From: a virus
Strand: one strand, 5' to 3'
Virus record (IMG/VR): IMGVR_UViG_3300043099_000429
Coordinates: 1 to 29,662 of that record
Length of the DNA: 29,662 nucleotides
Part shown: piece by piece, positions 5,144-23,661 of the stretch
Layout: each line of letters begins with the position of its first letter
Position numbering within the stretch: position 1 is the first letter of the stretch
Program-made: the position numbers and the translations under genes
Notes under the pieces: generated by a model
The model's database searches: none
Seen by the model: the letters and a program-made list of their open reading frames with translations, nothing else
What the model was told of the DNA's origin: nothing

Positions 5144-5289
5144 GACAGTCCGGTGGCCCTAGGGGTCACTGGCCCCTCAGCTACCCCGAAAGTTTCAGTT
5201 ATACGAATAGCCGCCTTTGCCAGTTTCGGCTTAGTGCGGCCAAAAACCGCTAGTTTCCGCAACCGCGCATATCAGAGTGAGAAAATACG
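5144..5289 (+). promoter_or_regulatory. GC-rich non-coding leader before the NAD cassette
   Basis: This 146-base stretch has no gene. It begins with direct repeats of TGGCCC and a short hairpin (AGGGG/CCCCT), then carries AGTTTC three times at roughly 30-35 base intervals and two further small hairpins (AGCCG/CGGCT and GCGG-CCAAAAA-CCGC). It separates the exonuclease from the five-gene cassette, so it probably holds a terminator, a promoter or both. I see no convincing -35/-10 pair and no U-tailed terminator. Confidence 0.4.
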
Positions 5290-5733
5290 ATGAGAGCTGT
5301 TAGCAAGAAAGTCATGAAGAGTATTCAGATTGTACCCTTCGTCGAAAAGGCAAATGAACTTTATAGCAAGATAATGGAGAACACTCCAAAGATGGTAGAT
5401 CTTGTCTGGAAGATTAACAAGAGGTTTCCTGGCAAGTTTTCCACTCCTTCCCTAACTGGTCCGCGTTATACAGCATACCTTTCGCTGTATGGTCTCGAGG
5501 GGTTCAAATGTGAGGAACTTACAGAAGTCTTGGAATTCCTTATTAGTCTAGACCCAAAGGGGACCAGCTCTAACGAGTATCCAGGCTCCTTCAATATAGA
5601 CTATCACTTTGATTTTGAGTATCTGAAACTCTCAGTCTTTGCGCATGTGAAGCAGGATTCTCAAAACTGCAGACGAGTGGTTGTCGGTGAGGAGACGATC
5701 ACTCAGTATAAGTATGAGTTAGTGTGTGATTGA
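5290..5733 (+). CDS. Hypothetical protein heading the NAD cassette (147 aa)
   Basis: First gene after the non-coding leader, with only a weak GAGTGAGA motif before ATG 5290. The N-terminal third is helical and basic; the centre carries LYGLEGFKCEELTEVLEFLI and the C-terminal part is beta-like with many aromatics (FNIDYHFDFEYLKLSVFAHV). No family recognised. Its stop overlaps the next start (TGATG), tying it to the membrane protein and the NAD-related genes that follow. Confidence 0.65.
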   Translation: MRAVSKKVMKSIQIVPFVEKANELYSKIMENTPKMVDLVWKINKRFPGKFSTPSLTGPRYTAYLSLYGLEGFKCEELTEVLEFLISLDPKGTSSNEYPGSFNIDYHFDFEYLKLSVFAHVKQDSQNCRRVVVGEETITQYKYELVCD

Positions 5734-5918
5734 TGGAAACAAACGCCATCAAATTAGCGCTTCTCGTGCTTATTATCAGTGCCTTCTATCACGCTATTTT
5801 TGATAAAGAGGAGGGCTGCTTCCTCTTAGATTTTGTAATGGGCGCAATCAAGGGCGCTGCATGGGTGGCAGTTGTAGGTGCTGTAATATGGGCAATTCTC
5901 TTTATAATCTCAGCCTAA
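5733..5918 (+). CDS. Small membrane protein with two TM helices (61 aa)
   Basis: Two hydrophobic segments, about residues 5-21 (IKLALLVLIISAFYHAIF) and 30-60 (MGAIKGAAWVAVVGAVIWAI onward), flank a short charged turn (DKEEGC). It would sit in the inner membrane as a hairpin with both ends on one side. It starts inside TGATG of the preceding gene and ends 12 bases before the PRPP-synthetase-like gene, so it is part of the same operon. No family recognised; small hydrophobic phage proteins can be inhibitors or holin-like, but nothing here proves either. Confidence 0.65.
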   Translation: METNAIKLALLVLIISAFYHAIFDKEEGCFLLDFVMGAIKGAAWVAVVGAVIWAILFIISA

Positions 5919-5930
5919 GGGGTGAATCAA

Positions 5931-6746
5931 GTGATCAAGATCGTTGTGGATGGTTCCGTAGTAAAAGATTCAAAAGTATGGAAGTTCCCTGGCGGTGAAA
6001 TGGGTGTTAATATCGGGACTGTTCCAAAGCAATGTAATGAGGTCGTCATAGAGGCTTTTCTAAAGAATTCTGACGACGTAATGACACTGCTGATGATGTC
6101 AGATGCCTTTCAGCGTACTGTTGATTGCACTAAGTTCAGTTTGATTCTGCCATACTTTCCGTATGCAAGGCAAGATCGTGTTTGCAATCAAGGCGAGTCC
6201 TTAAGCGTTTCCGTATTTGCCAAACTGATCAACAGCATGCACTTCAACGATGTCATAGTGGACGATCCACATTCGCCAATGGTTCTGAAGTATCTGCACA
6301 ATGCTATTGCAGTGCCACAGCATGAACTCATGTGGCAGCACAGAGATGTTCGTGACTTCATTAACACGAATAGTCCTGTTATGGTTGCACCTGACAAAGG
6401 GGCGGCTGCAAAGGTCTACTCACACTTCGCGAGGCATTCAAAGCTCAATTCGTGTGTCATTCAGCTGGATAAGCTTCGGGACTTAAAGACAGGAGAGGTT
6501 ATTGGACTCACTGTCGATAATGTCTTCAACAGTAGTGTACAAGGTCAGCACTTGTTGATCGTAGATGATATCTGTGATGGCGGCAGGACGTTCATAGAGG
6601 CAGCTAAACTGCTTCAACGGGAGTTCAAGCCTGCGTCAATCTCTCTGTATGTATCGCATGGTATCTTCAGCAAAGGTCTGGAGGTATTGCACGATGCAGG
6701 GATTCAAAATGTCTGGTGTACTAACAGCTTCCTGGAGAGACAATGA
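5931..6746 (+). CDS. PRPP-synthetase homologue; candidate ADPR-pyrophosphate synthetase (271 aa)
   Basis: Ribose-phosphate pyrophosphokinase family. Visible motifs: PYFPYARQDR (residues 74-83, ATP binding), GESLSV (88-93), DDPHSP (111-116, the metal-binding His loop), PDKGAA (154-159), the PRPP loop VDDICDGGRTF (211-221) and VSHGIFSKG (241-249). It is shorter than cellular Prs (about 315 aa). GTG 5931 is preferred over GTG 5922 because AAGGGG sits eight bases upstream. Family members transfer pyrophosphate from ATP to ribose-5-phosphate; phage members paired with a NAMPT homologue include Adps, which acts on ADP-ribose. The NAMPT homologue lies two genes downstream, so Adps is a strong candidate role, but the substrate is not readable from motifs alone. 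Confidence 0.88.
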   Translation: MIKIVVDGSVVKDSKVWKFPGGEMGVNIGTVPKQCNEVVIEAFLKNSDDVMTLLMMSDAFQRTVDCTKFSLILPYFPYARQDRVCNQGESLSVSVFAKLINSMHFNDVIVDDPHSPMVLKYLHNAIAVPQHELMWQHRDVRDFINTNSPVMVAPDKGAAAKVYSHFARHSKLNSCVIQLDKLRDLKTGEVIGLTVDNVFNSSVQGQHLLIVDDICDGGRTFIEAAKLLQREFKPASISLYVSHGIFSKGLEVLHDAGIQNVWCTNSFLERQ

Positions 6747-7060
6747 TTTACATAGCAGCACCTTACTACAGTCCATATCCTGTCGTAATTGAGACTCGAA
6801 TGTTTGCCGTATACGCATATGCAGCAAAGCTAATGCAAGTTGGTAAACACTGTATCACTCCGATGTTCTTTCATCCAGTCGTGAAGCTTCATGAGTTGCC
6901 TAACGACTTTGCATTCTGGGGTGATCTTTCGCTGGATCTCTTGAAGCGGTGCGATGAAATGCATCTACTCAAGCTGGAGGGTTGGTCTGTATCAAGAGGT
7001 GTGAAAGAAGAATTAGACTTTTGCCATAAGAATGGTATAAAGGTTTCATATGTGGAGTAG
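6743..7060 (+). CDS. DUF1937 / nucleoside deoxyribosyltransferase-like protein (105 aa)
   Basis: The N-terminus MIYIAAPYYSPYPVVIETR and the region DFAFWGDLSLDLLKRCDEMH then LKLEGWSVSRGVKEEL match DUF1937, a small Rossmann-like family related to nucleoside 2-deoxyribosyltransferases. The SRGVKEE stretch (residues 84-90) corresponds to the S-x-G-x(2)-x-E site that supplies the catalytic Glu in that superfamily. Relatives bind nucleotides and cleave or exchange N-glycosidic bonds. The gene overlaps the PRPP-synthetase homologue (ATGA) and precedes the NAMPT homologue, so it may process a nicotinamide- or ADP-ribose-linked nucleoside. The function is inferred. Confidence 0.75.
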   Translation: MIYIAAPYYSPYPVVIETRMFAVYAYAAKLMQVGKHCITPMFFHPVVKLHELPNDFAFWGDLSLDLLKRCDEMHLLKLEGWSVSRGVKEELDFCHKNGIKVSYVE

Positions 7061-7114
7061 TGAGCTGCCAATATTAAAGTGCTCACAAAACTTTCTGTTA
7101 AGAAAGGTATCAAA

Positions 7115-8581
7115 ATGTTTAAAGTAAAAGCAATAAACGCCATAGACTTCTACAAGTCGGGCCACATCTTTCAGTACCCTAAGGGTACGACGGGTGTATA
7201 CTCCAACTTCACGCCAAGAAGTGACAAACACATGAACGTGGAACGGAGCATGTATGACGGGAAGTTCGTGTTTTATGGCCTCGAGATGCTGATTATCTAC
7301 TATCTCATCGAGATGTTCAATGATACGTTCTTCAATATGCCAGCTGAGGAGGTTGTTCCGGCGTACAAGAACAGAATGGACACATCGCTGTTCTGTGATT
7401 TCAAAGTTGAACACATAGCTGCTTTGCACAAGCTTGGCTATATTCCGCTGAGAATCAAGGCGCTGCCGGAGGGTGTTAAAGTGAATCCAGGAATTCCTGT
7501 GTTTACGATTAGGGAGACTATTTCGTCTTTCTACTGGCTCACGAACTATGTCGAGTCGGCTCTATCTTCGGAGCTGTGGAAAAAGATGTTGAATGCCACG
7601 ATAGCGAATCACTATCGTCAGATTTTCAAGACGTTCGCAATACGCACAGGAGCACCGCTGGACTTTGTGGATTGGCAAGGGCATGACTTCTCGATGCGTG
7701 GCATGTCGGGTATTGTGGATGCGGCAATGACTGGCACTGCGCACTTGACCTCGTTCTACGGAACGGATACAGTGACAGCTCTCGACGCAATTGAGTACTT
7801 CTACAATGCGAAGGGACTGCTTGGTGGAAGTGTACCTGCAACTGAGCACTCAGTAATGTGCTTGGGTGAAGAGGCCGGTGAACGCGAGACTATCAAGCGT
7901 CTTATTACCGAAGTGTATCCATCAGGTATCGTGTCAATCGTCTCTGATACATGGGACTTCTGGAGTGTGATTGCAGTAACAGCGCCATCACTGAAAGAAG
8001 AGATCATGGCTCGCGACGGAAAGGTTGTGTTCAGGCCTGACTCTGGTGACCCTGTGAAGATCATCTGCGGTGATCCAAAAGCACCTGTAGGGAGCAATGA
8101 GTGGAAAGGCGCTGTACGGATTCTTGCAGAGCGTTTCGGAACCACTATGACCGAAGCTGGTTATATGGTTCTGGACAAGCACGTCGGTCTTATTTACGGA
8201 GATTCTATTACTCCTAGACGTGCCTATCAGATCCTCTCTAATCTTGAGGATATGGGCTATGCAAGCTGTAACTGTGTGTTCGGCATCGGTTCATACACAT
8301 ACAATTACAGCACTCGTGACAGTCTTGGTGCTGCTATCAAGTCCACGTCAGGCTCTGTAAACAATGTTCGCAGGGACATCTTTAAGAATCCAAAGACAGA
8401 CGACGGCATAAAGAAGTCTGCCAAAGGGCTGTTAAGGGTGGAGCTGCTGAACGGTGAGTACGTGCTCTATGACAACCAGACGCCAGAGGAAGAGGCGCTT
8501 GGCGAGTTGAAGATTGTATTCGAGGATGGAAAGTTGCTTCGCAGGACACCATTCGAGGATATTCGTGCACGCTTAATGTAA
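7115..8581 (+). CDS. Nicotinamide phosphoribosyltransferase homologue (NAMPT/NadV or Namat) (488 aa)
   Basis: Full-length NAMPT-family enzyme. Visible features: AIDFYKSGHIFQYP and YSNFTPRSD near the N-terminus, FSMRGMSG (192-199), GTAHLTSFYGTD, the active-site His in VPATEHSVM (H245, equivalent to the phosphorylated His of human NAMPT), SDTWDFW (277-283), FRPDSGDP (307-314, PRPP site), GLIYGDSITPRRAYQIL (358-374) and FGIGSYTYN. It joins nicotinamide to PRPP giving NMN, or, in NARP1 phages, to ADPR-pyrophosphate giving NAD+ directly. ATG 7115 was chosen for the AAAGG seven bases before it. No NMN adenylyltransferase gene is visible in this window, which favours the one-step NAD+ product if the pathway is self-contained. 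Confidence 0.92.
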   Translation: MFKVKAINAIDFYKSGHIFQYPKGTTGVYSNFTPRSDKHMNVERSMYDGKFVFYGLEMLIIYYLIEMFNDTFFNMPAEEVVPAYKNRMDTSLFCDFKVEHIAALHKLGYIPLRIKALPEGVKVNPGIPVFTIRETISSFYWLTNYVESALSSELWKKMLNATIANHYRQIFKTFAIRTGAPLDFVDWQGHDFSMRGMSGIVDAAMTGTAHLTSFYGTDTVTALDAIEYFYNAKGLLGGSVPATEHSVMCLGEEAGERETIKRLITEVYPSGIVSIVSDTWDFWSVIAVTAPSLKEEIMARDGKVVFRPDSGDPVKIICGDPKAPVGSNEWKGAVRILAERFGTTMTEAGYMVLDKHVGLIYGDSITPRRAYQILSNLEDMGYASCNCVFGIGSYTYNYSTRDSLGAAIKSTSGSVNNVRRDIFKNPKTDDGIKKSAKGLLRVELLNGEYVLYDNQTPEEEALGELKIVFEDGKLLRRTPFEDIRARLM

Positions 8582-8588
8582 CAGACTC

Positions 8589-8614
8589 GCTACCGTGCCT
8601 TCGGGTGCGGTAGC
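8589..8614 (+). terminator. UUCG-capped hairpin closing the NAD cassette
   Basis: Eleven-bp stem (GCTACCGTGCC with GGTGCGGTAGC, two G-U pairs) capped by TTCG, an exceptionally stable tetraloop. It starts seven bases after the NAMPT-homologue stop. No U-run follows, so it may protect the 3' end of a processed message rather than stop transcription outright. Confidence 0.65.
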
Positions 8615-8629
8615 AGTTGAAGGAGGACT

Positions 8630-9265
8630 ATGGATGAGAGTGATAAGGAGAAACCAAAGTTTAAGCTACCTGATGACCTTGTTGGCTATACCCACAAGCC
8701 TCTTAATGTTGTTCCTGTGGTTACTCAGCGAGTTCGTAGCGTAGTTAGTCTGGAAGGTAAGGCCAATTCGCGTGTAGATGCAAGAGATTACAGAGGTAAT
8801 GGGCACTGGGATTTCCCTGAAGATCTCGGCGGAAAAGGTTTCATTGGATTTATCTACGTTATCGTAGACAACAATGCTAATAAGATTTATTTAGGTAAGA
8901 AGAACTTTACTACTCTTAAGAAAGTAGAAGGGACTGTTCGCCGACAACAGACTGATATGAACTGGCGATGGTATATCTCGTCCAGCAAAGAATTGAGTGC
9001 ATCAGTCAAGAACTTTGGCAAAGAAGGTTTTGAATTTATTGCCATTGAGCAGTATCACAGCAAGGGCACACTGAGCTACGCCGAATCATGGTCGCTATTA
9101 CATGTAGAAGCGCCTTATCGACAAGACAAGTGGTATAATCTCTTGATCAACAAGGTGTCTTGGGCGGTCAAGGAGCCGATAACAGAACGCCATAAGCAGC
9201 GTCTAGCAAAGGCAATGCAAATGGTTGGTGCAGATAAACCAAGGAAGGAAATAACAGATGTTTAA
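8630..9265 (+). CDS. GIY-YIG family endonuclease, SegE-like (211 aa)
   Basis: The central GFIYVIVDN (73-81) and KIYLGKKNF (85-93) form the GIY...YIG strands, followed by MNWRWYISSSKELSAS (110-125) and an active-site-like Glu in SYAESWSLLHVEA (149-161). This order matches the phage SegE-like putative endonuclease family. Such enzymes are homing endonucleases or DNA-exclusion nucleases. AGGAGG lies only three bases before ATG 8630, tighter than usual. The N-terminal 65 residues and basic C-terminus may read the DNA target. Confidence 0.78.
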   Translation: MDESDKEKPKFKLPDDLVGYTHKPLNVVPVVTQRVRSVVSLEGKANSRVDARDYRGNGHWDFPEDLGGKGFIGFIYVIVDNNANKIYLGKKNFTTLKKVEGTVRRQQTDMNWRWYISSSKELSASVKNFGKEGFEFIAIEQYHSKGTLSYAESWSLLHVEAPYRQDKWYNLLINKVSWAVKEPITERHKQRLAKAMQMVGADKPRKEITDV

Positions 9266-21809: not shown

Positions 21810-22371
21810 TCCACCCTGTCCTGTACTCTTCGAGGGATGGGAAACAACCACAGAAGCACTTGGCAGACGTGGCTGGAGAATATCTCTCGAGGAGGAATAT
21901 CGTCCTTATGATTTTGCAAGCGAGAAGCGTCTACTTCTGTATCACGATAAGTCTAATTTAAAGATGCTGGCCGTCAGTCGTGAGTATCGTGAGTATATGG
22001 AACGGGATCGTTACAATAGCTTTCAACACCAGTATATGCAAGAGTGGAACGGCCCTACATTTAATGTAGTACACGTAGCAAATGATTTTGTGTTCAAGTA
22101 TGATACGTGTATGCCACAGTTTATTGAATGGGGCGAAACGAGGCCGAGAACGATAGAAATGCATGAGCAGGATATAATGATGACGCCGCTATTCCTGAAG
22201 CTAAAGGAAGCGGAAGCTAAGGAAATCATTGTGGAACCTCAAGAAGTCTCTCAACTACTTGAGCAGATCATGCGGATGCAATCTCCAGGACAGGCTGAGA
22301 TACGTAAGCGTAACAGGTTGATAACACCACAAGTGCATGCATCAATATTGACATTTCCAGGAGCAGCTTAG
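21790..22371 (+). CDS. Hypothetical protein (193 aa)
   Basis: ATG 21790 overlaps the previous gene by 20 bases in another frame. The N-terminal half shows VLFEGWETTTEALGRRGWRI and repeated strands, and the middle holds HEQDIMMTPLFLKLKEAEAK. The composition (W-x-T-x(3)-AL-x(3)-GW) recalls a recurring phage hypothetical family. No catalytic motif seen. Confidence 0.65.
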   Translation: MALLRVNPPCPVLFEGWETTTEALGRRGWRISLEEEYRPYDFASEKRLLLYHDKSNLKMLAVSREYREYMERDRYNSFQHQYMQEWNGPTFNVVHVANDFVFKYDTCMPQFIEWGETRPRTIEMHEQDIMMTPLFLKLKEAEAKEIIVEPQEVSQLLEQIMRMQSPGQAEIRKRNRLITPQVHASILTFPGAA

Positions 22372-22715
22372 TGATCATTGCGTTGGACTATGATGGTTGT
22401 TTTACGGAAGATATAATGCTATGGAGAATCTTTGCTTCAGGTTGTGATGCACAAGGACATAGGCTTATCGCAGTCACTATGCGGTATCCATCAGAACTTA
22501 TGCATGATCACTTGTATGAGATAATCGGAGAGGGCAACATCTTCTGTACAGGTCGGAAAGCAAAGAAGCCATTCTTAGAAGCAGTTGGTATCAAGCCTAA
22601 TGTATGGATAGACGATCATCCGCAATCTGTATTCATGGATGCAGAACAAATATGGGGCATAGCTACACCTGAAGGCCACACTAATTCGACTAATGCTGTT
22701 GATCTAAAGGACTAA
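22371..22715 (+). CDS. HAD-superfamily phosphatase-like protein (114 aa)
   Basis: GTG 22371 with CAGGAG about six bases upstream. Motif I ALDYDGC (Asp 6 and Asp 8), motif II Thr in AVTMR (36), a Lys near 65 and motif IV WIDDHP (79-84) define the HAD phosphotransferase core with almost no cap. Phage relatives are small 5'-nucleotidase or 3'-phosphatase-like enzymes. The substrate is unknown. Confidence 0.72.
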   Translation: MIIALDYDGCFTEDIMLWRIFASGCDAQGHRLIAVTMRYPSELMHDHLYEIIGEGNIFCTGRKAKKPFLEAVGIKPNVWIDDHPQSVFMDAEQIWGIATPEGHTNSTNAVDLKD

Positions 22716-23148: not shown

Positions 23149-23661
23149 ATGTCTGCCGAGGAATGGAGACCAGTAGTTGGTAACACTAATTACGAGGTTT
23201 CATCTCTTGGCAGGGTAAGAATGTTACCTCTAAAGAATGAGTTACCTCTGAAATTGAATAAAGGCTATGTGTATGTGTATTTAAGAGTACCAGACAAGCT
23301 ATACACAGGCGTACATAGACTAGTGGCTGCGGCGTTTCTACCAAGGTCATTATGCGATACAGAAGTAAATCATAAAGACGGGATTAAATGTCACAACAAG
23401 TTTGATAATTTAGAGTGGTGTACACCTCGAGAGAACGTAAGACATGCACATAAAATGGGTTTAATGAAGCGGAGTGCCAGGGTGTTGCTAACTGAAAGAG
23501 ACATTCCAGAAATATACAGATTACATTTAAGTGGTATGTCAAACGGTGCAATTGGGAAGATCTACGGAGTGCACAACGCGACTATCAGCAGTATTGTTAC
23601 TCGTCGCACTTGGGCAGATGTCACTCCAAAACCCGCGCAGGGCTGCTCTAGTGGGCCATAG
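23149..23661 (+). CDS. NUMOD4/HNH homing endonuclease (170 aa)
   Basis: Domains in order: NUMOD4 (EEWRPVVGNTNYEVSSLGRV, residues 4-23), a His-Asn-type HNH nuclease (VHRLVAAAF, EVNHKDG 72-78, NLEWCTPREN 87-96) and a C-terminal helix-turn-helix that reads DNA (about 115-150, SNGAIGKIYGVHNATISSIV). This is the common architecture of phage homing endonucleases. It is free-standing between an unrelated coiled-coil gene and a non-coding island, starts one base after the upstream stop, and is AT-richer than neighbours. Confidence 0.88.
   Translation: MSAEEWRPVVGNTNYEVSSLGRVRMLPLKNELPLKLNKGYVYVYLRVPDKLYTGVHRLVAAAFLPRSLCDTEVNHKDGIKCHNKFDNLEWCTPRENVRHAHKMGLMKRSARVLLTERDIPEIYRLHLSGMSNGAIGKIYGVHNATISSIVTRRTWADVTPKPAQGCSSGP

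Follow-up and report, generated by a model that had tools for sequence, protein, structure and literature searches.

We analysed a 29,662-base phage record, IMG/VR IMGVR_UViG_3300043099_000429, which is held as a fragment and is referred to here in its entirety as the window. It contains a block of five co-directional open reading frames (ORFs) on the (+) strand, flanked by genes for a 5'-3' exonuclease and a GIY-YIG endonuclease. The last three ORFs encode homologues of Adps (ADP-ribose pyrophosphate synthetase; 5931-6746) and Namat (nicotinamide ADP-ribose transferase; 7115-8581), the two enzymes of the NARP1 pathway, and between them a DUF1937 protein (6743-7060). Neighbouring ORFs overlap or almost abut, with TGATG at the junction of the first two, which encode proteins of 147 and 61 amino acids, and ATGA at the junction of adps and the DUF1937 gene; the block would be read as a single transcript. 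An original prediction made from the sequence had described a five-gene cassette at 5290-8614 that may rebuild nicotinamide adenine dinucleotide (NAD+) against host immunity. All five ORFs are present on one strand, but two of them are orphans, and the prediction left unmentioned that the DUF1937 gene has the fold shared by nucleoside deoxyribosyltransferases (NDT) and TIR domains.

The two enzyme families named in the original prediction, a phosphoribosyl pyrophosphate (PRPP) synthetase homologue with the motif VDDICDGGRTF and a NAMPT homologue with the active-site residues EHS, were both recovered. The first protein has the motif and matched Pfam Pribosyltran_N (4e-13) and PHROG Prs (2e-77), and NCBIfam likewise supported its assignment to the PRPP-synthetase fold family. 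Its ORF could start at 5922 or at the GTG at 5931; the latter is preceded by an AAGGGG site and is on that basis the more likely start. As a PRPP-synthetase homologue just upstream of Namat, it has the arrangement used here to recognise Adps. The protein is 28-44% identical to other Adps, its closest relative being at 44%, and in a tree it grouped with the Adps of Namat-linked loci and was split from three Prs at a Shimodaira-Hasegawa-like approximate likelihood ratio test (SH-aLRT) value of 99. Our survey comprises 109 non-redundant loci in which Adps and Namat occur together. Three residues recur among these Namat-linked Adps: the Pro of YxPx[AS]RxD (103/109), the Ser of [DE]xHS (102/109) and the Phe after the PRPP-type loop (103/109). 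The window protein carries all three (YFPYARQDR, DPHS and GGRTF), and none is found in the Prs of E. coli, 4twb or 1u9y.

The second protein starts at the ATG at 7115, the program-called GTG at 7079 having no clear ribosome site. It contains TEHSVM and matched Pfam NAPRTase (3e-33) and PHROG Nampt (4e-183), and its closest relative is 70% identical. Its best sequence matches in the PDB were the SPbetaL1 Namat structures 9w5x and 9w5w (457 bits, compared with 194 bits for human Nampt), which were also the best Foldseek matches of its predicted model. The published signature that sets Namat apart comprises an SCH motif and, at the SCL, either a stacking Arg or a Lys or Tyr followed by a stacking fourth residue (Lan et al., PMC12774641). 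Both elements are present in the window protein. Its SCH motif reads GSYTYNYSTRD; an SCH motif occurs in 106 of the 109 surveyed Namats and in none of four Nampts (human and three phage), which do not have the SCH aromatics. At the positions of SPbetaL1 Arg40 and Val41 the SCL has Lys-His, of which the His would stack on the adenine. The catalytic core is identical to that of SPbetaL1 Namat (D13, Y15, F189, R192, D215, A242, H245, R306 and D308), and all listed residues binding nicotinamide and the ribose phosphate are retained. A quick tree placed the window protein with 54 other rows, including the verified Namat, apart from the four Nampts (SH-aLRT 100).

Because the published Namat signature is present and the Adps homologue groups apart from Prs, NARP1 is the best reading of the locus. 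Judged at the level of sequence, the block is very probably a phage NARP1 operon, in agreement with the original prediction, which had preferred NARP1 to a stand-alone nicotinamide mononucleotide (NMN) route. In such an operon, Adps would transfer pyrophosphate from ATP onto ADP-ribose, and Namat would join the product (ADPR-PP) to nicotinamide, forming NAD+ in one step. The pair would thereby reverse the NAD+ depletion caused by host TIR, SIR2 or SEFIR defences.

Several observations weigh against this reading, some of them in favour of ordinary NMN salvage, whether NARP2-like or metabolic, in which Prs would make PRPP, Nampt would make NMN, and a host or phage adenylyltransferase would complete NAD+. 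General libraries label the two proteins in these terms, as ribose-phosphate pyrophosphokinase and nicotinate or nicotinamide phosphoribosyltransferase. In vitro, Namat can also use PRPP to form NMN (PMC12774641), and an NMN route is thus open to the pair in principle. The tree check suggested with the original prediction was run and both proteins grouped with Adps and Namat, but HdNadV of H. ducreyi, named with NMN in the titles of PDB entries 9ke8 and 9keo and used for NMN production in E. coli (PMC6095924), also branched on the Namat side (row PDB9ke8). Clustering cannot decide between a Namat and an NMN maker because HdNadV falls beside SPbetaL1 Namat, and tree position was set aside as the deciding test. 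Overall fold was no better as a Namat-versus-Nampt test (Z 45.6, against 44.4 for HdNadV). The Adps tree has long branches and few outgroups, and the three Adps residues are a correlation of our own rather than published criteria, drawn by comparison with only three Prs. The survey drew its loci by their similarity to the window, and its counts therefore describe relatives of the window. Finally, the window Adps did not group with the Adps of survey loci L005 and L006, although the corresponding Namats group together; this discord may reflect fast change or exchange of adps.

The residues of the adenine clamp do better than clustering in discriminating Namat from NMN makers. HdNadV does not contain the SCH motif and, with Gln and Arg where the two stacking residues would be, has no clamp, and the Nampts are likewise without one, whereas the window Namat has it. 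The window PRPP-synthetase homologue, in turn, carries Adps-type and not Prs-type residues. The NMN route would also require an NMN adenylyltransferase, whose absence the original prediction had invoked. This domain (PF01467) was not found in the window combined with an overlapping 41 kb contig from this phage population (together about 54 kb), using a search that scored in 14 of 14 control genomes; this supports NARP1 weakly, because the genome is incomplete. Together, these results make NMN salvage improbable. Separately, HdNadV (9ke8 and 9keo) and SPbetaL1 Namat form a natural pair for probing the clamp.

NARP1 itself is already known, and the window pair would be a new example of it. The closest structural reference is NARP1 of the Bacillus phage SPbetaL1, in which Adps is likewise followed by an adjacent Namat that is about 48% identical to the window protein and shares its clamp and catalytic residues. 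However, the SPbetaL1 Adps aligns over part of its length only, at 28% identity, and no DUF1937 gene separates the pair. NrsAB of the Vibrio phage ICP1, which raises NAD+ in infected cells (PMC11559045), consists of homologous Adps and Namat, also with no DUF1937 gene between them. In the ICP1 isolate included here (MW794185; L172 4001-5467) there is an in-frame stop near the Namat start, and the record annotates a shorter ORF. The mycobacteriophage DyoEdafos has a 49% identical Namat and, like the window, an additional small gene between adps and namat, but its product, RyDEP, is an RyR-domain protein. Canonical NMN salvage and NARP2 (Nampt or NadV with an NMN adenylyltransferase) share the fold and catalytic residues of the Nampt component but not the clamp. 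The window adds a divergent probable NARP1 that is recognised by residue criteria rather than annotation; public libraries would label it phage NMN salvage. Outside these systems, a record named Acinetobacter phage MD-2021a (L171) contains a full-clamp Namat beside an Adps homologue and a gene whose annotation is NMN adenylyltransferase/ADP-ribose pyrophosphatase, amid bacterial-looking genes; the contig may be mislabelled and this NARP1 bacterial.

We next consider the gene between adps and namat. Its 105-amino-acid product matched Pfam DUF1937 (PF09152, 7e-10), did not match the RyR domain, which RyDEP does, and is named nucleoside 2-deoxyribosyltransferase in PHROG. The predicted model (predicted local distance difference test score, pLDDT, 97) has the NDT/TIR fold. 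Its closest solved structure was 1t1j (Z 15.7); next came TIR NADase domains (SPARTA 11.2, AbTir 9.8, SARM1 9.7) together with nucleoside deoxyribosyltransferases and nucleotide N-glycosidases (NDT, MilB and DNPH1; Z about 9-10.6). The window protein shares with these proteins its fold and probably a conserved Glu but is shorter and only 8-25% identical. At least 90% of the 28 relatives compared retain Glu90. When positions in the last helix are counted from the aligned C-terminal ends, rather than residue by residue, and the last 15 residues are taken to align without a gap, this Glu coincides with E88 of Chroococcidiopsis NDT (ClNDT) and E103 of MilB, both of which are mutated in the matched PDB entries. 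It also falls on SARM1 E642 and DNPH1 E104, which we take to be catalytic. The DUF1937 protein is most likely a nucleotide or ADP-ribose glycosidase of NDT/TIR fold.

Such an enzyme could either feed ADP-ribose to NARP1 or be an unrelated passenger; neither conflicts with a NARP1 role of adps and namat, and we consider the passenger the more likely. As a feeder, which would refine NARP1 here rather than replace it, the DUF1937 protein would release ADP-ribose for the pair by cleaving cyclic ADP-ribose signals or some other ADP-ribosyl compound, in the manner of RyDEP. RyDEP occupies the same slot in DyoEdafos and converts cyclic ADP-ribose signals to ADP-ribose used by NARP1, and 2'cADPR treated with RyDEP was turned into NAD+ by the DyoEdafos pair (PMC13232231). 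Retron-Eco1, an NAD+-hydrolysing defence, uses an NDT-like effector (PMC12405507). The gene order in L005 is Adps, PGDYG protein, DUF1937, Namat, so that DUF1937 is found in the same place even though the L005 Adps is only 39% identical to that of the window (Namat 69%). Together with the fold, shared with NAD+-cleaving TIR domains and nucleotide N-glycosidases, and the conserved Glu90, these observations make a feeding or signal-opening role plausible. However, only the window population and L005 have DUF1937 adjoining adps or namat among 40 viral DUF1937 loci, and DUF1937 was rejected as a general NARP1 partner; a scan of bacterial genomes returned two weak relatives. L006, whose Namat is equally close, has an unrelated ORF in the gap and no DUF1937 within its 22.5 kb. 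We also know of no activity for DUF1937 proteins, which counts against a feeder, and on balance we regard this role as doubtful. Less likely still is a three-enzyme NARP1 in which DUF1937 opens host immune signals built on ADP-ribose, or other ADP-ribosyl compounds, and so supplies Adps and Namat with ADP-ribose. Such an enzyme would be an alternative to RyDEP at the same operon position. Were DUF1937 to act on signals of this type, it would mean that phages have redirected the fold of the host NADases against the host's own signal.

As a passenger, the protein would have a role of its own unrelated to NAD+, such as deoxynucleotide trimming. This is consistent with its PHROG name and with DUF1937 being a common small phage family mostly found without NARP1. 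The slot also accepts homing endonucleases: HNH endonucleases are over-represented in the Adps-Namat gap (5 loci, 3e-5), which marks the gap as partly a general insertion site and speaks against the feeder. On the other hand, the gene overlaps adps at ATGA, which hints at translational coupling, and the placement is common to two divergent lineages. A passenger is therefore a realistic possibility, though we stop short of calling it probable.

The gap may nevertheless be worth searching for partner enzymes. Fewer than 100 bases separate the two genes in 66 of the surveyed loci, and in 38 an ORF of at least 60 amino acids lies between them. Besides DUF1937, the gap contents include macrodomain and RyR proteins and, repeatedly, a HAD-like protein. 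The latter, of PHROG 1238, was assigned to HAD by visual inspection of its motif. It occupies the gap in 6/109 loci (L011, L046, L053, L067, L091 and L160) and the flanks in one; as the gap makes up 3.8% of the surveyed bases, this is an excess (binomial 2e-8). In L053 the protein is a fusion with an NDT-like domain (Pfam). The HAD-like protein is a candidate NARP1 partner. Macrodomain proteins, which bind ADP-ribose, were found in 10/109 neighbourhoods, between adps and namat in two (L020 5491-5925 and L108 6744-7304) and near the pair in the others (L036, L059, L075, L076, L114, L124, L128 and L156). SLOG (YAcAr) proteins are encoded no more than 4 kb from NARP1 in 8 loci, usually on the upstream side (L057, L059, L074-L076, L097, L127 and L160). 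Macro, SLOG and HD genes were absent from a small set of 35 control loci, but the difference is not significant (Fisher p 0.11-0.20), and an enrichment near NARP1 was not established.

The first two ORFs of the block are orphans. The 147-amino-acid ORF (5290-5733, +) was found in three sibling contigs from its own phage population and nowhere else; it had no match in Pfam, PHROG, NCBIfam or PADLOC and found no phage record by tblastn, and its identification as an RyR or other known protein was dropped. The 61-amino-acid ORF (ATG 5733-5918, +) recurs in sibling contigs only and matched neither Pfam nor PHROG. Its hydrophobic composition suggests that the product is probably a membrane protein.

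The original prediction had bordered the block with a non-coding leader and a UUCG hairpin. The leader (5146-5289, +) indeed contains no ORF, and it folds weakly better than shuffled sequences (z -1.5, with 15/200 shuffles equally good). The hairpin is also real (-22.9 kcal/mol, z -3.7 against shuffles) and follows namat on the (+) strand at 8584-8618, ending at 8618 rather than 8614. Neither element matched an Rfam family above the gathering score, the best match of the leader being far below the cut-off. Directly 3' of the hairpin, GAAGGAGG and then the next start codon stand in place of a U-run. Since the U-run is lacking, the hairpin is not a standard terminator, and it is absent from the list of terminator-like sites.

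The window contains further homing endonuclease genes of LAGLIDADG (1805-2410) and HNH (23149-23661) type in addition to the GIY-YIG gene (SegE type, 8630-9265) that directly follows the operon. The PHROG 447 label 'NAD synthetase' on the GIY-YIG protein looks wrong. A 112-amino-acid protein at 927-1265 (PHROG 2072, no function given) begins VFGSNLEGRHERGAAKDA, which recalls ADP-ribose-binding macro-like proteins; its best PDB macrodomain match was not significant (E 0.85), and it was not retained as a macrodomain. At 22371-22715 the window encodes a HAD-like protein of PHROG 4256, which is the second-best family of the HAD-like protein from the NARP1 slot of L011.

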